DNA of 64,000 nt from a virus: IMG/VR virus record IMGVR_UViG_3300041964_000068, positions 1-64,000 of that record; one strand, given 5' to 3'. The notes beneath the pieces are model-generated. The model searched no databases and was not told the DNA's origin. It saw only the letters and a program-made list of their open reading frames with translations. Both the position numbers and the translations under genes were made by a program. Below are positions 3,114 to 45,936 of this stretch, one piece after another. Position 1 is the first letter of the stretch; each line of letters begins with the position of its first letter.

Positions 3114-3935
3114 CTACTCGCGGGGAAGAATAGCCCGCTGATAGGCTTCGCGCATGACCGCGAGAATACAGTCGGTCGGGTTGCCTGTGTGATGAAGGGG
3201 ATTCAGCGCGTCAATCATGTCCATCATCTCAGGATGAGTTTCGTTCGAGAGAAAGAGGTTGAGCATTCGAGTCGAGCTTTCCGGTGGGGCGTCGAAGTCA
3301 TCCTCGCCTTCGTCCTCAGCATCACTGTTCTCGTCGCTGCCATGATTGAAGATCATCTCGCCGCTTTCAGATAGTTCCTCATAGCGCAACAGAGAAGAGA
3401 GATAGTCAGTGTCGAAGCCGATCGGCAAGGCTTCCCCGGCCTCTGCAAGCTCCTCTAGCTGGGTGGAGAACTCCGGCGAAAACAGCTTGGCGATGTCAGC
3501 GGCGGAGTAGTCCCCGCCCTGCATCGTTAAAATGTTGTGCGATAAGCCGAAATTTTCCGCCTGCCGCTCTGACAGGGCATCGACGCCGAACTTAACCGGA
3601 ACCACCCATTCACCCGTCTCGGTGACGCGCCCGATACCTCGTGGGGGTTCTTGGTCTAGCTGGCGCATTCGTACCAGTTTCAGGATCAGCGACTTGGTTC
3701 GACCGTTGCCGTAGACGAATCCGCCCTCTCCACCGTTGAGGGTAGAATCCCACTTCGCGCAGTCAGCGTAGCCGTACTCTTCAATGCTCTCGTCAAGCAG
3801 TTGCAAATCGTGAAGCTTGAGATTGTTCTCCCAAAGCTGCACATCTAAATCAAAAGCAGATAACGGGACATAGCGAATGTGAAGCACGTCGCCCGTTATC
3901 TGCTCTAGTGAAAGCGAATTTTCAAGTAGGGTCAC
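3114..3935 (-). CDS. ParB/sulfiredoxin-fold nuclease-like protein
   Basis: 273 residues. The N-terminal half has the ParB-N pattern: YVPLSAFDLD, then LKLHDLQLLDESIEEYGY, then GGFVYGNGRTKSLI, where GNGR corresponds to the ParB nucleotide/phosphate-binding motif. The middle is Asp/Glu-rich (DAEDEGEDDFD) and the C-terminus has no obvious HTH. Phage ParB-like proteins of this sort often sit beside DNA methylases and other modification genes; here it is directly upstream of the LexA-like/dioxygenase/glycosyltransferase operon. A role in DNA modification or its regulation is more likely than plasmid partition, but this is inference. Confidence 0.7.
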   Translation of the reverse strand: MTLLENSLSLEQITGDVLHIRYVPLSAFDLDVQLWENNLKLHDLQLLDESIEEYGYADCAKWDSTLNGGEGGFVYGNGRTKSLILKLVRMRQLDQEPPRGIGRVTETGEWVVPVKFGVDALSERQAENFGLSHNILTMQGGDYSAADIAKLFSPEFSTQLEELAEAGEALPIGFDTDYLSSLLRYEELSESGEMIFNHGSDENSDAEDEGEDDFDAPPESSTRMLNLFLSNETHPEMMDMIDALNPLHHTGNPTDCILAVMREAYQRAILPRE

Positions 3936-3962
3936 AGCACAGCAGGGTAGAAAACTACTCTG

Positions 3963-4238
3963 TCAAGCTATCAATCTTTGGCGTTGACGTTGGGGAGTTG
4001 CGCGAATATCGTGCAAGTGTCCCGTTGTGTCCTGCTTGATTTCTCCTGCGGCGATCGACCACTGCAAATGTACAGGCAGATTTTCGACAGGCAGCGCTGC
4101 TACAATCTTGTGCTGAACATTAGCCAGTAGCACAGCGACCTCAGTCATGGGGACATTCTTGCTCCCGCTGAGGATGCCGTTTAGCACTTTTTCAATTCTT
4201 ATCAAGCTGTCAAGATCTTCGGGAGAGTTTGTCAACAT
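3963..4238 (-). CDS. Hypothetical protein, 91 aa
   Basis: Mostly helical sequence with a basic Gln/Arg-rich tail (TPQRQRQRLIA). I do not recognise a family. It lies between the Acb2-like gene and the ParB-like gene on the same strand, and its 5' leader contains a nested 63-base inverted repeat, which suggests regulation at the RNA level. Confidence 0.5.
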   Translation of the reverse strand: MLTNSPEDLDSLIRIEKVLNGILSGSKNVPMTEVAVLLANVQHKIVAALPVENLPVHLQWSIAAGEIKQDTTGHLHDIRATPQRQRQRLIA

Positions 4239-4243
4239 GGCGC

Positions 4244-4306
4244 ACCGCCGAAATTAGTGCAGAAAATACCCTACGCATCTAGGATTAACCTAGCACTTTC
4301 GGCGGT
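4244..4306 (-). promoter_or_regulatory. Nested stem-loop in 5' leader
   Basis: A perfect 10-bp outer stem (ACCGCCGAAA at 4244-4253 with TTTCGGCGGT at 4297-4306) encloses a second stem (GTGC/GCAC) and an inner CTAGG/CCTAG hairpin. It ends six bases before the ATG of the 91-aa gene on the minus strand. It has no following U-run on that side, so a folded leader is more likely than a terminator. Confidence 0.45.
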
Positions 4307-4352
4307 TGTATGCTAGTCCCCTGGATAGATTTCCTGCCAGGAGCCAAAGCAA

Positions 4353-4381
4353 AAACCGATCGGGGTTCGTCCGATCGGTTT
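4353..4381 (-). terminator. Rho-independent terminator after the Acb2-like gene
   Basis: Perfect 11-bp stem AAACCGATCGG / CCGATCGGTTT with a 7-base loop. On the minus strand it is followed by a T-run (GGTTTTTGC). It lies 27 bases past the stop of the 62-aa gene and probably works in both directions. Confidence 0.75.
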
Positions 4382-4407
4382 TCAAGTATTACTGCTTTGA
4401 GCGTGAT

Positions 4408-4596
4408 TTAATCTAGCTTTGCTCGGACGAAACAATCTTTAGCCTCAAGTAATTTACGCATACCTGTTGATTTTTCGTCTCCGTCTGGAAGAACTTCTTC
4501 CATGAGTTGCGCTAAATCTGCAACTGGTTTACTCACTTCTTGCAAGCGCTCAGGAAGATGCTGGTAGGTGAAATACTTGTCAACGTTAGTAGGCAT
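4408..4596 (-). CDS. Acb2-like (DUF7681) anti-CBASS cyclic-nucleotide sponge
   Basis: 62 residues. The sequence has the size and pattern of the Acb2/DUF7681 family: YFTYQHLPERLQEV, then a helix with ADLAQLMEEVLPDG, then EKSTGMRKLLEAKDCFVRAKL, which corresponds to the conserved final helix with S-A-L-x-x-L-x-E-A. Family members are phage proteins that form hexamers, bind cyclic di- and trinucleotides, and so block CBASS immunity. The gene stands alone with its own terminator beside modification genes, as expected of an early counter-defence gene. Identification rests on motif resemblance only. Confidence 0.6.
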   Translation of the reverse strand: MPTNVDKYFTYQHLPERLQEVSKPVADLAQLMEEVLPDGDEKSTGMRKLLEAKDCFVRAKLD

Positions 4597-4741
4597 AGAT
4601 TTGATCTCTGTCCTTACGGTAACTTTCAGAAAAAGTAAGATCGCTCAACTTCAAGCGCTGCTCGTACACCTGTTTACTGTCGGTGCGTTGGTGTCGTGTG
4701 CCAGCAGGCAGTTGAAGCAGCGATCTTCACTCAAGCATAGC

Positions 4742-4909
4742 TCAACAGAATCGCTCTGGCCTTAGCTTGCGAGGCTTCGGTGTTTGGGGTGGAGGCTTCG
4801 GCTTTTCCTTGGGGTTGTGCTTCTCTTGAAACTCTTCGTCCCAGTCATTTAGCAAAGAGCGATCGAACTCAGATTGCGAGTCGTCGCTTGATGAGTTTTG
4901 ACTGGTCAT
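4742..4909 (-). CDS. Small charged Pro/Lys-rich protein, 55 aa
   Basis: Starts at ATG 4909 (MTSQNSSSDDSQSEFDRS) and ends with a Lys/Pro-rich tail (KEKPKPPPQTPKPRK). Its ATG overlaps the TGA of the upstream 140-aa gene (ATGA), so translation is probably coupled. An acidic first half and a basic second half suggest an unstructured binding protein. Function unknown. Confidence 0.5.
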   Translation of the reverse strand: MTSQNSSSDDSQSEFDRSLLNDWDEEFQEKHNPKEKPKPPPQTPKPRKLRPERFC

Positions 4910-5328
4910 GCAATTGTCAGTCCTGCGTCATCCAGAAACACTTCTTTCGTGCAGACCTCAGCAAAACTGCTTAAGGTTTCGGCAAACTGATGCAAAGATT
5001 CCAGTCCTTCAACGCTTAGCCCTTGACTGCCAACAGTGATTCCTTCTGAGGCTCCAACAAAGGTCACATTTTCATCTTCCCTTGAAAACGTAATCATTGT
5101 TCGACCCGCCAAAGATTGAACTAACACCGCGAAGCCAAGATATTGAGTAGAAGCACTTCGCAATCCTCTAATCTCCTTCCAGCAGTAGGTAATAGACTTC
5201 TCCATGCGTCTCATCATCACTACCGCGACATGATGATCGTGGCGCACGGCCTCTTCTAGTACGTTGGATTCGTAAAGTGCGGCGTCAATAAGCCCGCTTG
5301 TATGAAAGCGCATGATTTCTCCCATCAA
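4906..5328 (-). CDS. Hypothetical protein, 140 aa
   Basis: No recognised domain. The start may be the first or second Met, or the internal MRFHTSG. It is followed by the 55-aa gene through an ATGA overlap and preceded by the 137-aa MGEAKRRK gene 18 bases upstream, so these genes form one minus-strand transcription unit. Confidence 0.5.
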   Translation of the reverse strand: MMGEIMRFHTSGLIDAALYESNVLEEAVRHDHHVAVVMMRRMEKSITYCWKEIRGLRSASTQYLGFAVLVQSLAGRTMITFSREDENVTFVGASEGITVGSQGLSVEGLESLHQFAETLSSFAEVCTKEVFLDDAGLTIA

Positions 5329-5346
5329 TCTAAACGTCCCAAAACA

Positions 5347-5760
5347 TCAAACCGCTTTCCCCATCACCTCATGGGGCTTAATCCAGCCCGTTACTTCTCC
5401 ATCAATGTCATCCTGGCACGTAGCGAAGTCGCCAATACCTTGATTGTCGTCGGTGAATAGTCTCGCCCAGAATCGATCGGGCAGGGTGCTTGCAAGCTCA
5501 ACCAGGGGCGCGAGCATTTCTTCGCCCATTGACTTGACAAGGTTCTGTTTACTTTCGAGTAAGTCAGGCTCTTGTAAGACGCTAAAGATTAGCACTGCGT
5601 TGGCCTGCGCCCGCCTGTCGGTGTACCGCTGTTTCGCCATGCGATCGACAGAGAACGGAACGTAGGCGATTTCACCTTGCTTGTCGTAAATCTGGAGCCG
5701 GAATACTGCGGGCTGTCCGTAGGACGGATCTAGTTGTTTTCTGCGTTTTGCTTCACCCAT
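5347..5760 (-). CDS. MGEAKRRK-type conserved hypothetical protein
   Basis: 137 residues. It begins with MGEAKRRKQLDPSYG, a signature at the N-terminus of many small cyanobacterial and phage proteins of unknown function. The rest has no recognised domain. The start overlaps the end of the 162-aa membrane protein gene by 31 bases. Confidence 0.6.
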   Translation of the reverse strand: MGEAKRRKQLDPSYGQPAVFRLQIYDKQGEIAYVPFSVDRMAKQRYTDRRAQANAVLIFSVLQEPDLLESKQNLVKSMGEEMLAPLVELASTLPDRFWARLFTDDNQGIGDFATCQDDIDGEVTGWIKPHEVMGKAV

Positions 5761-6218
5761 TTTTGACTATCGATGTTTTGCGGTACTAGTTTTGTGACAG
5801 GTTCATCCGAACGAAAACGCTCAACACGCCTGTACCGATCGGGGTCAAAACGATCCAGAGCAGGGAGAAGGAAAACTTCAACCAGATTGCGATCGATGTC
5901 AATTCGACACACCTCCCAGTAATCAATGTTTTCGCGTGGAAGTAGCAAGACATCATCAATGCGTAAATCTTGACTTAGCACGGATGATTCAACGCCCTCA
6001 TTTATCAACCAGCGTACAAATTGCTCGCGTTCTTGTTCTTGAGCTTTCTTGTTCACGGTTTTTTCCTCCTGCCGAAAAGAGAAGTAGAGAAAGATTTGCC
6101 CCAAGGCAAGCAGCACTAGGACGGGCGGCGGGATTGGCATCGGGACGAGCAGCGCCATCAATCCACCCAAGCCCAGCCACACGAGCGACCAAGTGATTTG
6201 TCGTCTTGCTTGAATCAT
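5730..6218 (-). CDS. Membrane protein with cytoplasmic C-terminal domain
   Basis: 162 residues. Two hydrophobic helices (about 9-27 and 30-48, the hairpin LVPMPIPPPVLVLLALG) are followed by a charged coiled stretch and a soluble domain (residues 65-162). No family recognised. The gene follows the frameshifted DNA methylase directly, with its ATG close to or inside the methylase 3' end. Confidence 0.5.
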   Translation of the reverse strand: MIQARRQITWSLVWLGLGGLMALLVPMPIPPPVLVLLALGQIFLYFSFRQEEKTVNKKAQEQEREQFVRWLINEGVESSVLSQDLRIDDVLLLPRENIDYWEVCRIDIDRNLVEVFLLPALDRFDPDRYRRVERFRSDEPVTKLVPQNIDSQKWVKQNAENN

Positions 6219-25790: not shown

Positions 25791-27263
25791 CTAAATCAAT
25801 ACAAGTGCCTGTGAACGAGTCAAATTCAGGCTTCCGTTCGCCGCCGTCACGACAGGAGAACTCACCCGCCAATCTGATATCTTGCCGTTGAGGTCGATCG
25901 CCGCCACGCGAATAAAATAAGTACCCTGGCTGACACCTTCAAAGCGCGTTTCATAGCTCCCCTTAATCACCGTGCGCGTATCCTGCCAGGTGATTCCGTC
26001 GCGAGAGTATTCCACGTACACGGCTTTAATCAAAGCGGCAGTCGCGGCGTTCAGCGTCCAGCCCGCCACGAGGGGTGTAATCGATCGTCGTATTCCTATC
26101 ACCGCAATAGCGCCAGCCGTCACAGCAGCAGGCGGCGTGACAACGGTGGGGATTGAGAATCGCGTCGGCGCGGCCTCAACTTCGACCTGGCTTTCGATCG
26201 CGGCGTACTTGCTGGGGTTGTACTCGATCGCGTTAATTTCAACCCGCGTCGGATCTCCGGCCTTGGGTGCAACGCTCACCACGCGAAAGGTCTGAGGCTG
26301 CACATTAGGGTCACGGACAATCCAGTTGGACTCCGCGAGCGGAACTTCCGAGAAAGCTGCTGTAACAGCAATTACGCTGGCGACACCTGTCCCTGAAATC
26401 GTGCGGGTTTGCAGCGCACCGGACGGCAGCATAACCGTGATCGTGAAACCCGCGCCAACCACGACCGGAGAATCGAGGGTGACAGTCGTAGCGGTGGCGG
26501 CGGCAATCAAACCGCCGTAGCGAATATTGGCAAATTCATCGTCTGCAACTTGAATCACCTCGCCGGGGCGGCAGTAAGCGGCGAAGCTACGAGCGGTAAA
26601 CGAAACACTGCGAGTTTCATAACGGCTCGAATACAGCGCCCAGCGCCCTACCCGAATTGCCAGCGCCCGCGACGTACAGCCGAAGGCGGCGATTTCGATT
26701 TCGCGAATGCCGTACTTGTTAATCCCAACAACATCCTCAACCGTCTCAACCGCTCGCTGGTACTCGTCTTCGGGGTCGTTCCAGGTCACACGCGCAACCG
26801 TGTGACGAGCGCGAATCGCCGTGCTGGAGTAGGTAAACCTGCCTGAAATATCCGCCTGGGTGAACTGCCGCACCGGAGTAGCGGGGCGATCTTGCCAGAA
26901 TTTAACAATCCCGCCGCTCCAGTACGGCTTCATGTGGCAAGCGCTGCAAAATGCGTTAATCACCTCCCACGCTTTTTCTCCCGACTGCAACTGCGTGTTA
27001 CAGCTATACCGCCGTTCGCTATAGCCAAGTCCAGTGGGGAGCATCTGATTGTTGTAGACCGAGCATTCGTACAAGTTCCATTTATCAATCAGCGAATCCT
27101 CGATCGAGCGCCCCAGGCCGTAGCGATTATTCGTGAGCAGATCAAATAAATGCCACACCGGATCGGCGCAGGCTTTCGAGGGAACGTAAAACGTGCCGTT
27201 CCAGGCTCCCGAAAAGTTCAGCCCGCGATCGGCGGCAACGGTGGCGTTAGAGGGAATCCGCAC
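25791..27263 (-). CDS. Tail tip attachment protein J-like, C-terminal part
   Basis: 490 residues of the lambda gpJ/host-specificity family. It includes RIPSNATVAADRGLNFSGAW, then WHLFDLLTNNRYGLGRSIED, the Cys/Trp-rich EKAWEVINAFCSACHMKPYW, the barrel core and a C-terminal fibronectin-III-like part (WTLNAATAALIKAVYVEYSR). The frame begins in the middle of the gene; the N-terminal part is in the overlapping frame 27218-28470, with a single shift near 27460. J sits at the tail tip and binds the host receptor. Confidence 0.75.
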   Translation of the reverse strand: MRIPSNATVAADRGLNFSGAWNGTFYVPSKACADPVWHLFDLLTNNRYGLGRSIEDSLIDKWNLYECSVYNNQMLPTGLGYSERRYSCNTQLQSGEKAWEVINAFCSACHMKPYWSGGIVKFWQDRPATPVRQFTQADISGRFTYSSTAIRARHTVARVTWNDPEDEYQRAVETVEDVVGINKYGIREIEIAAFGCTSRALAIRVGRWALYSSRYETRSVSFTARSFAAYCRPGEVIQVADDEFANIRYGGLIAAATATTVTLDSPVVVGAGFTITVMLPSGALQTRTISGTGVASVIAVTAAFSEVPLAESNWIVRDPNVQPQTFRVVSVAPKAGDPTRVEINAIEYNPSKYAAIESQVEVEAAPTRFSIPTVVTPPAAVTAGAIAVIGIRRSITPLVAGWTLNAATAALIKAVYVEYSRDGITWQDTRTVIKGSYETRFEGVSQGTYFIRVAAIDLNGKISDWRVSSPVVTAANGSLNLTRSQALVLI

Positions 27264-28470
27264 TCGCCGCCCCGCAATCTTGTACTGTCGCTGCGGGATA
27301 GAGGAGAACTGCTCAGGCTGAAAATCAAGCAGGACGTAGGCGGTGTAGGGATAGTTGAGCTTGTTTTGGATGACCTCGGTGTAGCTTGACCACTGGAGTT
27401 TTTGGACTTTTTTCTGTGAGGTTGAGTCGCTAGAAATCTTGGTGATCCTGACCTGAACGTATCAACCGTGCCGCCTTGGTTGTTCACCTTGAAGGCGTAC
27501 TCAAGCTCGGTGGGGCTGGAGAATTTGCCTTGCAGGTTTTTCTGATAGCGCGTCTGCCAAGCCGCTCCGCCCTGCTTCACCTCAATGCGGTACTCGATAT
27601 CCGTGCCCGAAACGTCGCCATCGTCTTCATATTTGACAAGCGTTACCGCAATCCGCACCCGGATCAGGTCAAGCTCGCTATTAACGATCGATCGGGTTGT
27701 TGCGCCCAGTGAGTTTTTCACCTCGACGTTGACGCTTGTTTCTGAGGCGATTTCTTCGCCATCGCCTGCAATAATGCTTTGCCCCGGCGAACCCCGGCGC
27801 AATTTGTACTTGAAGCCCTTAAAGTTGAGCGAACCGTCTGCGTTTTGTACCGGGGTCTTATCGAGCAAGATACCTTTACGAGCGCCAACTAGCCCCTCAA
27901 TCTGCCCCTCAGAAATTGCCTCAAGCACATAGGCTCTACTGGTCGATCGGCCTGTGTCGTCGGCCTCTTGCGGCGATCCAGCGCTCTTGCCGCCGCCCAT
28001 GTTGCTAACGCGAATACCGTGTTCGCCTACTAGGTAGGTGTGAGTGTATGCAACCGTGATGTTGTAGACCGTCTCGGTGCTGCGATAGCGCCACCCTAAG
28101 AGCTTGCGGGCAAGATTCGCGCCATCATAAAGCAGATCTCCCGGCGACAGCTTTCCGACTTCCTCGAAAGCTGTCTCACCGCCTAAGTAGCCTGCGACAA
28201 ACCAGTGATTCGGCGTGGCGGGAATCATCCCGCCCTCATAGTCGTACTCCCAGACACCGTGCCCTTCGTGGATATGGGTTTCGGTAACGTAGGAGCTAAC
28301 CACGTTGCCGCGCTTGTCAAAGCAGTAAACGTAATCTCCGACATCTAGCTCGCAAATTGGCCTCAAGCCGAGCGGCGTCTGCACACAGACATCCGCCGGA
28401 AAGCAGCCGCCGAAGCTGCCGGAAAGAAGGGGAGGGCGTTCTCGGTCTTCGCAGGGTTAGCTGTCTTCAT
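27218..28470 (-). CDS. Tail tip protein J-like, N-terminal part with embedded Hint domain
   Basis: ATG 28470 (MKTANPAKTENA) needs one shift near 28425 to reach GSFGG and then a Hint domain (28001-28405). After it the J N-terminus follows: STSRAYVLEAISEGQIEGLV, GSLNFKGFKYKLRRGSPGQS, SVNVEVKNSLGATTRS, DLIRVRIAVTLVKYEDDGD, EYAFKVNNQGGTVDTF. Another shift near 27460 leads into the C-terminal part. So J here is ~890 residues, ~135 of them the Hint insertion. Longest open piece is 27218-28384. Confidence 0.7.
28001..28405 (-). other. Hint (intein-like/BIL) domain inside J
   Basis: About 135 residues. Block A: Cys at the start (CFPADVCVQTPLGLRPICEL, then DVGDYVYCFD). Block B: ATPNHWFV with T-x-x-H. 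Block F: VYNITVAYTHTYLVGEHG. It ends IRVSN followed by Met-Gly-Gly-Gly. The penultimate His of true inteins is replaced by Ser and there is no Cys/Ser/Thr at +1. Full splicing is therefore unlikely; autocleavage, as in BIL or pretoxin-Hint domains, is more likely. No homing endonuclease is embedded. Confidence 0.7.
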
Positions 28471-28574: not shown

Positions 28575-29247
28575 ATGAATATTCTACCGATTTCTGTCGA
28601 AGAGTTTTCGATTGCAGAAATTGAGCGGTTTTGGGATAAGGTCGATCGCAGCGCGGGTGATGATGGTTGCTGGCTGTGGACGGGTAGACTTGACAGAGGT
28701 GGATACGGCTCGGTCTGGCGAGGCAGGAAAAAAAGAGCTACACCTGCACACAAATTTTCATTCACATCTTTGCGCGGAGAAGTCCCAAAAGATCTGCAAG
28801 TTCTGCATCGCTGCGATGTAAGGAATTGCGTCAATCCAAAACATCTTTTCTTGGGGACAATTGCCGACAACATGGCTGACAAAACAGCGAAAGGTCGGCA
28901 GTTGAAAGGAGAGAAGATTAAAGCTTCAAAATTAACTGAGGCTTGATGTTTTGCAAATCAAAGAATCAATGGTTTCTGTTTGTCCGAGCGAGCTAGCAAA
29001 GCGGTTCAACGTAGCTCCAAGAACCATTCGAGACATCCTCAATGGACTCACCTGGAAGCACGTTGGCGAAGACACGAAAGGCGTCGAGCGATTCAGGCTT
29101 AGGAAAAGACTGTCAGACGACGAAGTGCGGCAGCTTAGAACACTTGCCAAGCAGACTTCAACCAAAGCAGCGGCAATTGCATACGGAATTCCGTATATTT
29201 CTGCGTGGCAAATCGTGATCGGGAAAAACAGAAAGAATGTCATCTAG
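28575..29247 (+). pseudogene. HNH homing endonuclease, one frameshift, opposite strand to tail genes
   Basis: ATG 28575 after AGGAGTAGGG. First part: FWDKVDRSAGDDGCWLWTG, then HKFSFTSLRGEVPKDLQVLH, RCDVRNCVNPKHLFLGT and NMADKTAKGRQLKGE, the HNH_3 pattern with H-x..N-x..H. After a one-base shift near 28945 the DNA-binding tail follows: LQIKESMVSV, SELAKRFNVAPRTIRDILNG. It lies between J and I on the opposite strand and its 3' end overlaps the I-like stop by 4 bases. This is a typical free-standing homing endonuclease of phage. ~223 residues if repaired. Confidence 0.75.
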
Positions 29248-35704: not shown

Positions 35705-37222
35705 TTAAAAATCTTCATCGTCTTCAAACAGAGCAGCGTTAATCTCCTCGTCAGACAGCGGTAGCGGGGCTGTGTCTTCTTCTCCCAATACCGTCACCTC
35801 GACAGGAACAGTAATCTCCTCTACCAGTGCGGGCGCAGGCTGAGGACGCGATTGCAGTCGATCGCTCCACTCTGGGCGAGAGCTTTGAGCGAGGTTCCTG
35901 AACCTGCCAAACTGCGGCTCAAACAGTAAGCGTACGGTTCCGGTTTCGCCTGAGCGGTTCTTGAGGTTGATCAGTTCGGCAATGCCGCGATCGGTCGTCT
36001 CAGGGTTGTAGTATTCATCTCGGTACAGCGCCCAAATGTGATGAGCGTCTTCTTCCACCAGTCCAGACTGTCTGCCGTCAGACATCAGCGGACGCTTGTC
36101 GTTGCGTGTTTCAACGTTACGGTTAAGCTGCTGAAGCAGGATGACATGAATTTTGAGTTCACGAGCCAGCGCTACCAAGCCTTTCGTGATCTTGCCTGAA
36201 TCCCTGGTCGGGTCATCAGAGGACTGGAGCATATACTGCAAGTGATCGATGATCAGCACGCTCAAGCCGTTCTCTTCACGCGCCAACTTACGAGCCTTGG
36301 CACGGATGATTTCGATCGTTGAGAACCTATCCGTCACATACAGCGGCAAGCTGGTAATGCGATCGAGGGAAACTAAGATGCGCTCCAGTTCGGGGGGCGG
36401 TACGTTGCCGGATTCGATTTGCTTCGAGTTGATCTGAGCTTCGGTAGAAACCAGTCGGGTGAAGATATCTTCTTCTGGCATCTCCAGCGAGAAGAATGCG
36501 GCTGTCTTTCTCGAAAGTCGAGCGGCGTTCTTCAAGATGTTGAGCGCCAATGCGGTTTTGCCTTGTCCCGGTCGTCCCATCAAAATCGTCAGGCGTCCCG
36601 ACATCAAGCCATTCGTCATGGCGTCCAGGTCGTAGAAGTCGGTCGGTGTTGCCGCAACACTCTCACCGTTAATTCTCTCTTCAAGCTGTGCATACCAGCG
36701 GGTTGCCAATCCCCCGATCATCTCGTCTTCGGCAGCTTCTTGCTGAGTGCAAAGCTGATGCACTTTTGCGTCAGCCAAGTTGAGCGCTTCCTCCAGGTCA
36801 TCGGCCTGATAGCCCAGTTGCACCAATTCGTTGCCGACGCGAATCATCTCTCGGAATCGGAAAAGTTTGGCGATAATTTTGGCGTGGAGGTCAACGTTGA
36901 CCGTACTGAGACAGCGCTCGTGCAGCATTGCAAGCTTTGATCGCCCGCCGACGCGATCCAGTTTCCCGATCGCTTCTAGATGCCTGGAGGCAGTGATCAA
37001 GTCGATCACCTCATCCCGGCTATACATGCCCAAGAGTTCGCGATAGATCTCCTGATGGGCACTGATGTAAAAGTGCTGCGGCTGCAGCACTTCGACCACG
37101 CGATCGAAGCAGTCCGACTGAAATAACAGCGCACCCAGAACGCTTTCCTCAGCCTCGATGTTTTGCGGTGGCAGGCGTTCTTCGGTAGCTCGTGAAAATG
37201 GAACAACAGCAGCGGAGTTCAT
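35705..37222 (-). CDS. dnaB: Replicative DNA helicase DnaB
   Basis: 505 residues. Hallmarks of the DnaB family: LPPQNIEAEESVLGALL at the N-terminus, Walker A GRPGQGKT (216-223), FFSLEMPEEDIFTRLVSTE, Walker B LIIDHLQYM and the C-terminal QQLNRNVETRNDKRPLMSD with the arginine-finger region. It unwinds the fork during element replication. It lies 85 bases downstream of the O-like initiator gene, the same pair of functions as phage O/helicase modules. The extra C-terminal ~60 residues are acidic. Confidence 0.95.
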   Translation of the reverse strand: MNSAAVVPFSRATEERLPPQNIEAEESVLGALLFQSDCFDRVVEVLQPQHFYISAHQEIYRELLGMYSRDEVIDLITASRHLEAIGKLDRVGGRSKLAMLHERCLSTVNVDLHAKIIAKLFRFREMIRVGNELVQLGYQADDLEEALNLADAKVHQLCTQQEAAEDEMIGGLATRWYAQLEERINGESVAATPTDFYDLDAMTNGLMSGRLTILMGRPGQGKTALALNILKNAARLSRKTAAFFSLEMPEEDIFTRLVSTEAQINSKQIESGNVPPPELERILVSLDRITSLPLYVTDRFSTIEIIRAKARKLAREENGLSVLIIDHLQYMLQSSDDPTRDSGKITKGLVALARELKIHVILLQQLNRNVETRNDKRPLMSDGRQSGLVEEDAHHIWALYRDEYYNPETTDRGIAELINLKNRSGETGTVRLLFEPQFGRFRNLAQSSRPEWSDRLQSRPQPAPALVEEITVPVEVTVLGEEDTAPLPLSDEEINAALFEDDEDF

Positions 37223-37307: not shown

Positions 37308-38543
37308 TTATTTCTTCGGGGCGAACTTAGCTCTAAAATCCTTTCCAAACGACGCTAGCCGTTGTTTCGTCTCTTCCGACACGACACGCTCCGCAGGCGG
37401 CTCAGCGGGCGATTCTGACGGGGTAGGGGCGATGGCTTGAGCGGCGAGGCGTTGTTGAGTCTCAGCGGCCTTACGCTTAAGCTCAAGACCTCTATCCCAA
37501 CGAAGTTCGATCGCTCTCCAGTCGTGCTTATTGATGTACCCGCCAATGCTGTTTTTCGCGTCACCTTCTTCGTGGGGAAGGTTGTACTTCTTCAGATGCT
37601 CAATCTGAGCTTTCACTACCCAAGGATCAAAGTCGTTTCGCTTCTGACCCACCCAAACTTGACCGTACCCCGCCGCTACCAAGTCTGGGTAAGGATGACC
37701 GGGAGTTGATGTTCTCGTCTTAAACCTGTCCTCGAATCGAGCCGCAGAACTGTAGCGAGAATCGTAACTTGTAGTCGGAGTGACTTCGTTTTTCGCCGCC
37801 GCGCCCTTTTGATCACCACAGACAGCCTTTGAACTTGACACGAGAGGAGGTGTTTGTGTGTTGTCGGGTGGGGGAGTATCTTTCGCATTCGGTTCCGGTG
37901 GCTGTTGTTCTGGCTGTTCCAGTTCGGTTGGAGAAAACGGCTGTTCGCTTCTTTCTTTCTTTATTGGAGAACCTTCAGAATGGAGAACCTTAAGAGGGAG
38001 TACCTTTGGGTTATCCCCGTTAACCCCCCCGGTTATCCCCGTTAACCCCCCCCGGTTATCCCCGTTAACCGTCTCAGTGTCGATCGGAGGGTTATCCCCG
38101 TTAACCCCCCCGGTTATCCCCGTTAACCGCTTCTTCCGTTCCTTGCCAGGATTGCCTTTACGAACGTTGCAGTTTTCGAGCGGAGTTTCGGGTTTATTCC
38201 AGCCTGACTCGGTTAGGTGATAGATGTTGACGTGATTCGTGCCGTCTTCTCTCTTGCGAGTTTCTTTGTAAATCAGCCCAAAAGCGATTAGCTCATTAAT
38301 CGCTGCAATCGCCTTGGCCTTGAGCGAAGCCGCAGAGGAGTTCGGGTAGGAACCTCTGAAGCACTGCTCGCCAATGCTGGCGTAGCTGGGGAAAGCGGTG
38401 TTGTTTGTTCCGGCTCTCCTCGCCAGATGCCCGTAGACCCGGAACGCTTCGATCGTCAAATTCAGATCGTCAATATCTGACTTGAGGAAAATGGGAACCT
38501 TGCGCGATTCCTGAAGGCGATCGTTCCCGTTTTGCTCTGACAT
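37308..38543 (-). CDS. O-like replication initiator (winged helix) with internal iterons
   Basis: 411 residues. Residues ~15-110 look like a winged-helix replication domain: KSDIDDLNLTIEAFRVYGHL, AFPSYASIGEQCF, AIAAINELIAFGLIYKETRK. Residues ~140-190 are low-complexity and encoded by five iterons (38009-38128). The C-terminal third holds a helical domain (FDPWVVKAQIEHLKKYNLPH, then AIELRWDRGLELKRKAAETQ), as in DnaD/O-type helicase recruiters. It lies directly upstream of dnaB. The lambda O gene has the same plan: DNA-binding N-terminus, origin inside the gene, helicase-contacting C-terminus. Start codon follows ACAGGAGT. Confidence 0.7.
   Translation of the reverse strand: MSEQNGNDRLQESRKVPIFLKSDIDDLNLTIEAFRVYGHLARRAGTNNTAFPSYASIGEQCFRGSYPNSSAASLKAKAIAAINELIAFGLIYKETRKREDGTNHVNIYHLTESGWNKPETPLENCNVRKGNPGKERKKRLTGITGGVNGDNPPIDTETVNGDNRGGLTGITGGVNGDNPKVLPLKVLHSEGSPIKKERSEQPFSPTELEQPEQQPPEPNAKDTPPPDNTQTPPLVSSSKAVCGDQKGAAAKNEVTPTTSYDSRYSSAARFEDRFKTRTSTPGHPYPDLVAAGYGQVWVGQKRNDFDPWVVKAQIEHLKKYNLPHEEGDAKNSIGGYINKHDWRAIELRWDRGLELKRKAAETQQRLAAQAIAPTPSESPAEPPAERVVSEETKQRLASFGKDFRAKFAPKK
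38009..38128. repeat. Five 17-bp iterons, probable replication origin
   Basis: Five perfect copies of GGTTATCCCCGTTAACC start at 38009, 38031, 38054, 38090 and 38112, so the usual spacing is 22-23 bp (two helical turns), with one 36-bp gap. Each copy is an imperfect palindrome (GGTTA...TAACC). Three are read as VNGDN and two as LTGIT in the initiator gene: the frame changes but the DNA stays identical. Pyrimidine- and AT-rich DNA (37948-37975) lies next to them and could be the unwinding element. Confidence 0.8.
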
Positions 38544-42986: not shown

Positions 42987-43012
42987 TTGACGTAATCACC
43001 TAAAAACGTCAA
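42987..43012. promoter_or_regulatory. Symmetric divergent -35 palindrome
   Basis: TTGACG and CGTCAA face each other 14 bases apart, so each strand has a TTGACG box with CAAGAA or CAAGAT at 17 bp. Only one direction could fire at a time. ATCAAGATTAG direct repeats follow at 43018-43040. Confidence 0.45.
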
Positions 43013-43050
43013 GATGAAATCAAGATTAGATCAAGATTAGATACAAAAAA

Positions 43051-45054: not shown

Positions 45055-45936
45055 ATGGGTAAGGATTCAAAGATCGCTTGGACAACGCACACTTTTAACG
45101 CCTGGTACGGTTGCGACGAAGTATCCCCGGCCTGCGATAACTGCTACGCTCGGCTGTTGATGGATGAACGCTATCACAGAGTCAAGTGGGGTAAAGGTCA
45201 ACCAAGAATTAGAACCAGTGAAAAATACTGGAAACAGCCCTACCAGTGGGACACTGAGGCCAAAGCTCAAGGCGTCCGGCATCGTGTGTTCTCGCTGTCG
45301 CTGGGAGACTGGCTGGACGACGAGGTTCCAATCGAGTGGCTAGCCAGTCTCCTTGCTGTTGTCTTCATGACACCTCATCTTGACTGGCTACTGCTTACCA
45401 AGCGAATCGAAGACTTTGAAAGCCGGATGTACCAAGTTGTTCGCACGATAGAAGAAGGCACTCCGGCCTGGGTTCTGGCTGAGGACTGGAGGAACGGCCT
45501 TCCGCCGCAAAATGTGTGGCTAGGGGTGACAGTTGAGAATCAAGAGATGGCTGACAAGCGTATTCCTTTACTCGCGAATGCTCCTGCCAAAATCCGCTTT
45601 TTAAGCTGTGAACCGCTGCTAGAGGGAATCGACCTGAGTAAATTCTTTAACATTTACTCCAGCGGTGAAGGCACGAACAGCTACGCCTCAGATCAGCCCT
45701 TCGATCAGGTCATTTTTGGCGGAGAGAGCGGCAGCAATGCTCGACCATTCGATCTAAGTGCAACGCGAAAGATGATCCAGCAATGCAACTCAGCGGGTAT
45801 CGCAGTCTTTGTTAAGCAACTTGGGCGGCGACCTGTCGAGAATGGGGTGACGCTAAAGCTGAGCGATCGAGAGGGCAAGAACATTGAAGAGTTCCCCGCC
45901 GATCTCCAAATTCGTGCGTTTCCTGATCGCGGCTAA
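45055..45936 (+). CDS. Phage Gp37/Gp68 family protein (DUF5131)
   Basis: 293 residues. It begins KIAWTTHTFNAWYGCDEVSP and ACDNCYARLLM, with three Cys spaced C-x(6)-C-x2-C as in this radical-SAM-like phage/plasmid family. RVFSLSLGDWLDDEVPIEWL, DWLLLTKRIEDF, NVWLGVTVENQEMADKRIPL, FLSCEPLLEGIDLS and FGGESGSNARPF are all typical. Its reaction is not established. It lies after the RNA ligase pair on the same strand. Confidence 0.85.
   Translation: MGKDSKIAWTTHTFNAWYGCDEVSPACDNCYARLLMDERYHRVKWGKGQPRIRTSEKYWKQPYQWDTEAKAQGVRHRVFSLSLGDWLDDEVPIEWLASLLAVVFMTPHLDWLLLTKRIEDFESRMYQVVRTIEEGTPAWVLAEDWRNGLPPQNVWLGVTVENQEMADKRIPLLANAPAKIRFLSCEPLLEGIDLSKFFNIYSSGEGTNSYASDQPFDQVIFGGESGSNARPFDLSATRKMIQQCNSAGIAVFVKQLGRRPVENGVTLKLSDREGKNIEEFPADLQIRAFPDRG

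Follow-up and report, generated by a model that had tools for sequence, protein, structure and literature searches.

A predicted tailed-phage replication origin inside the gene for its initiator

Introduction

What are five identical copies of a short DNA sequence doing inside the gene for a phage replication initiator? The question is raised by a stretch of 64,000 nt, here called the window, which forms the first part of the 78,514-bp virus record IMGVR_UViG_3300041964_000068. The record encodes a serine integrase (Pfam, PHROG) and a J-like tail tip gene, and therefore belongs to a tailed, probably temperate phage. The initial annotation of the window had taken the copies for the iterons of a lambda-type internal origin. 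We put at roughly 85% the probability that the locus is a tailed-phage replication origin embedded in the gene that encodes the initiator, where iteron binding, melting and DnaB loading would take place.

Results

Five iterons in the initiator gene

A 17-bp dyad repeat, GGTTAACGGGGATAACC on the coding strand and GGTTATCCCCGTTAACC on the given strand, is present in five exact copies at 38009-38128. Numbered in the direction of the gene, all on the minus strand, they are iteron 1 (38112..38128), iteron 2 (38090..38106), iteron 3 (38054..38070), iteron 4 (38031..38047) and iteron 5 (38009..38025), the last of which adjoins the putative unwinding element. Their starts, at nt 416, 438, 474, 497 and 519 of the gene, fall into two frames; in ascending window coordinates the steps between copies are 22, 23, 36 and 22. 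The initial annotation was exact in these respects: the copies are perfect, with 22-23-bp steps and one 36-bp gap, and two of them are read as LTGIT, the other three as VNGDN. It had mentioned neither the dyad symmetry, GGTTA...TAACC, nor the stop codon in the iteron's third frame.

No sixth iteron with up to 3 mismatches is found in the 64-kb window (0.02 expected), no further exact copy in the complete record, and no other viral contig contains the exact double iteron. None of 2000 shuffles each that keep the protein and the codon usage yielded a 10-mer, a 12-mer or a 17-mer in five copies. Because the copies are read in two frames, with 0/2000 synonymous shuffles reproducing them, neither codon choice nor peptide repetition can explain the iterons. 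Together with the lineage-specific repeats at the same place in relatives, described below, this supports the earlier view that DNA rather than peptide is under selection. GC skew, which had been proposed as a check for origin activity, has no clear turn at the iteron locus and is uninformative.

The initiator and its neighbors

The gene occupies 37308..38543 (-) in the ORF list and encodes 411 aa. Its product matches HTH_36 (PF13730) with 26.5 bits, the Pfam cut-off being 25, and this is the only Pfam match at E<=0.01; neither Phage_rep_O (lambda O) nor RepA_N (PF06970) is matched. In PHROG it is assigned to a 'replication initiation protein' (phrog_270, 8.8e-11) and, weakly, to the 'O-like' phrog_678 (1.2e-5). 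NCBIfam gave no match for the initiator, and a PDB sequence search with it gave nothing convincing. The winged-helix N-terminus of the initial annotation is confidently predicted by AlphaFold2 at about residues 22-112 (38208..38480 (-), pLDDT about 80-95) and has structural matches. The N-terminal domain of staphylococcal RepA (4pql, 4pt7) aligns over 94-95 residues with Z 8.5, a score tied with those of generic winged helices, and the best Foldseek matches include the N-terminal domain of DnaD. The following residues 114-306 (37626..38204 (-)), with pLDDT mostly <50, form a disordered linker whose coding segment holds the iterons and the putative unwinding element.

The initiator gene ends 85 bp before a complete gene in the same direction, 35705..37222 (-), for a phage DnaB-type replicative helicase (PF03796, 5.9e-73; PF00772, 9.2e-29). 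The initiator gene thus lies upstream of dnaB, as had been claimed, with dnaB transcriptionally downstream on the same strand.

Several other features of the window were noted. An intein-like segment, CVQTPLGLRPICELDVGDYVYCFDKRG ... HTYLVGEHGIRVSN, was recognized by eye at 27218-28384 (-) and has no Pfam intein match; the J-like tail tip protein (PF24801, 5.3e-18) starts immediately after it, and an HNH homing-type ORF, 28575-28946 (+), adjoins it. An 11-bp tandem repeat, TCAAGATTAGA, is present 3.1 times at 43009-43042, between two divergent genes. The HIP1 site GCGATCGC does not occur in the 64,000 nt, where 2.85 sites are expected from shuffles; possibly the virus avoids HIP1, and its host may be found among HIP1-rich cyanobacteria.

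A second repeat family next to the iterons

Directly after the last iteron lie three AAGGTNCTCC repeats (37966..38006 (-)), which are absent from the initial annotation. They follow one another at 15-16-bp steps in two frames, occur nowhere else in the window and are succeeded by an A+T-rich purine tract at 37948..37965 (-). Equivalents are present in relatives, and the stretch is a putative DNA unwinding element. Its A+T content is only mildly raised, 0.53-0.63 vs 0.47 for the gene. The AAGGTNCTCC motif was reproduced in 5 of 5000 synonymous shuffles, which is of moderate significance for a motif chosen post hoc.

In nearly all relatives, A+T-richer repeats of 15-16 bp likewise come after the array, and the excess of A+T is clear there, with an AT content of 0.60-0.80 in the first 30 nt; they are, for instance, AAAGATTATCCAATT in Nostoc and GAAGGTTCTCCAATT in the viral locus L051. 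A generalized 15-mer for the element is no commoner in most genes than in their synonymous shuffles, and its conservation at the DNA level across lineages is therefore no more than suggestive. Selection on DNA is also less certain for this second family than for the iterons, because the peptides encoded there are alike in most relatives.

Every intact relative has an array of its own

Relatives were sampled from Nostoc and Deinococcus plasmids, Nostoc genomes and viral contigs, four of the latter from alignment-based scans. Such scans were needed to find the viral relatives: the phage collection contains no full-length relative of the initiator, and a single-sequence viral scan yielded none. 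When cyanobacterial genomes were surveyed with PF13730, most matches were short and covered the HTH in part, and this survey was left out. The N-terminal domain is kept in the Nostoc, Deinococcus, L028 and L029 relatives with 36-57% identity to that of the window, and in L050 and L051 with 45% (tblastn).

By its own criterion, the initial annotation would have been refuted by relatives that keep the protein and lack the repeats. The outcome is in its favor: all 23 intact relatives examined carry a repeat array right after the winged-helix domain. The spacing is mostly 22/23 bp, and the sequences are lineage-specific: GGTAGTGNTGGGGGAACACC in Nostoc, AGTAGTCACCAACTACC in L028, CAGTGACTCCCCAGTCACC in L029 and AGCACGCCCACCGTGC in Deinococcus L011. 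With the window included, the array score is above the mean of synonymous shuffles in 24 of 24 genes (20 shuffles per gene). It also exceeds the shuffle maximum in all of them except L012, and just slightly in L051; in these two the array can hardly be told apart from a repeated peptide. The Nostoc loci are closely related, so that the sample represents about ten independent lineages.

The loci without an array are all broken. The genes of L023, L026/L049 and L047 are cut short, and a deletion in L025 has taken away part of the winged helix as well. In L025 (Nostoc sp. FACHB-892, 3917-4822) this deletion is in frame: it removes the wing, the iterons and the unwinding element, so that the C-terminal part now follows the winged helix in a frame that stays open.

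The surroundings are partly shared. In most Nostoc loci and in L051, dnaB is directly downstream; L028 and L029 have a gene for an uncharacterized protein at that position instead. In two viral relatives, L053 and L054, the gene after the initiator (5218-5949 and 4974-5615, respectively) encodes an uncharacterized phrog_10105 protein, a candidate helicase loader. A DUF5131 (phage Gp37/Gp68) gene at 45055-45936 of the window is common to the Nostoc plasmid loci L006, L008-L010, L013 and L014, where it stands just upstream of the initiator with methylase genes nearby. This suggests an early module common to phages and plasmids.

Alternatives to an origin

Sites of this kind could instead be operators through which the initiator represses or otherwise controls itself or dnaB, with the origin elsewhere. 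Dyad sites under winged-helix proteins can be operators, and many initiators autoregulate. However, a five-fold array about 400 nt into a gene, followed by a second repeat family, would be an unusual operator; a promoter-like site was looked for near the array and none was found. No better repeat array was found elsewhere in the record, and the identical layout constitutes the origin in lambda and pSK41 (PMC7466680, PMC5703833). We hold control of transcription to be an improbable sole function of the array.

A centromere-like partition or incompatibility site without an origin would suit those relatives that reside on large Nostoc plasmids, which need such sites, and parC-type sites are iteron arrays. 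Yet the place of the array inside the initiator gene is kept across phages and plasmids, and no partition gene was recognized among the neighbors examined, which are dnaB, methylases and phage-type genes. Partition is thus a poor candidate.

The repeats may also have grown by slippage as a peptide repeat of the linker, the identity of the DNA being a by-product. A disordered linker tolerates repeats, and in Deinococcus L011/L012, L050 and L051 all copies are in one frame, where peptide and DNA are hard to separate. In the window, Nostoc, L028, L029 and L055-L057, in contrast, the copies are spread over two frames, from which different peptides result; moreover, the arrays score above synonymous shuffles and each lineage has its own repeat. 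Slippage is accordingly a very doubtful source of the arrays. An RNA or single-strand hairpin element is scarcely credible, as the folding energy of the region is not beyond that of shuffles (z -0.25), although a short hairpin is possible for each iteron.

Reading frame and iteron spacing

Read in its third frame, the iteron has a stop in most, not all, copies: TAA in the window, TAG in Nostoc and L028, TGA in L029. The copies are confined to the two open frames. Because one frame is closed by a stop and the spacing lies near 22.5 bp, the stop codon can explain the alternation of 22 and 23 bp, for which a coding constraint would be the best explanation. A pair of 22 and 23 amounts to 45 nt or 15 codons, and the window adds to this one in-frame step of 36 bp. 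Deinococcus, L050 and L051 use in-frame steps instead (18, 21, 24, 60).

The lengths of the Nostoc arrays are 100, 121, 124, 145 and 166, each equal to 1 mod 3. The exception is L020 (Nostoc NIES-2108) with 123, where one 22-nt unit is missing vs 145; its reading frame runs into the TAG of the iteron that follows, which leaves an initiator of 153 aa. The loss of the unit may reflect a collapse or error in the assembly.

Discussion

The pathway that we propose has three steps. The initiator would use its N-terminal winged helix to bind the five 17-bp dyad iterons, which lie in the segment coding for its disordered linker. The resulting nucleoprotein complex of initiator and iterons would open the adjacent A+T-richer repeats at 37948-38006, and DnaB from the next gene would then be loaded at the opened origin. 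An internal origin of the lambda-O/RepA_N type, run by an HTH_36 initiator, is our working hypothesis from the sequence.

In lambda, gene O contains four iterons and an A+T-rich tract, and the gene for helicase delivery is downstream (PMC7466680). By our computation the lambda iterons are 18 bp long, have dyad symmetry, are spaced by steps of 20, 24 and 23 and lie in mixed frames. The window shares with lambda ori the placement of dyad iterons inside the initiator gene and the helicase-related gene downstream, and the lambda-type internal origin of the initial annotation is supported, as regards layout, by the relatives. Homology to lambda O is not supported by Pfam, which recognizes HTH_36 and no lambda O in the window initiator. 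In addition, the next gene in the window is the DnaB helicase itself, whereas that of lambda is the P loader, and the window iterons have no sequence relationship to those of lambda and use just two open frames.

A second parallel is offered by the RepA_N initiators. In pSK41 the Rep boxes are central in rep, the origin encodes the linker, and Rep combines an N-terminal winged helix with a lineage-specific C-terminus (PMC5703833); RepA_N iterons are often semi-palindromic (PMC7145576). As in pSK41 and pTZ2162, the window initiator has an N-terminal winged helix and a lineage-specific C-terminus, with an array of putative binding sites central in its gene and a linker encoded by that array. Unlike them, it has no PF06970 match, dnaB is adjacent, and the carriers are a tailed phage together with Nostoc/Deinococcus elements. 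The window initiator is therefore lambda-like by layout and a member of neither Pfam family, Phage_rep_O or PF06970. Similarly, ORF005R of Planktothrix phage PaV-LD, annotated as 'replication-related protein', has in-gene repeats that are absent from the annotation of that record. They are placed much as in the window and are followed by an A+T-rich stretch, with DnaB two genes downstream. However, ORF005R belongs to another initiator subfamily (best phrog_4707), its repeat period is 14 bp, and its HTH_36 match is below the Pfam cut-off.

The layout of an internal origin is already known from lambda and RepA_N. What appears to be new is the stop in the third frame together with an unusually clear frame constraint. 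A wider proposal, to which we give even odds, concerns an initiator family that Pfam separates from both RepA_N and lambda O. Its self-encoded origin would obey a coding rule by which each iteron closes one frame, giving rise to frame-neutral pairs of 22+23 bp. Iteron number, and hence copy control, could then change just by pairs or in-frame units unless the initiator breaks. An initiator-iteron pair peculiar to each lineage, next to a 15-bp unwinding repeat that is better conserved, would represent a compact specificity module common to phages and plasmids.

In a paper on new Rep proteins from large plasmids of cyanobacteria, CyRepA and CyRepX are described, and iterons or helix-turn-helix initiators are not mentioned (PMC10899382). 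For a group of Nostoc plasmids and several viruses, whose replication is not described in the literature that we found, our study predicts the origin together with the initiator that belongs to it. A simple rule would tie the spacing of their iterons to the reading frame. Since initiator and site travel in one gene, recognition codes could be read off from such genes.
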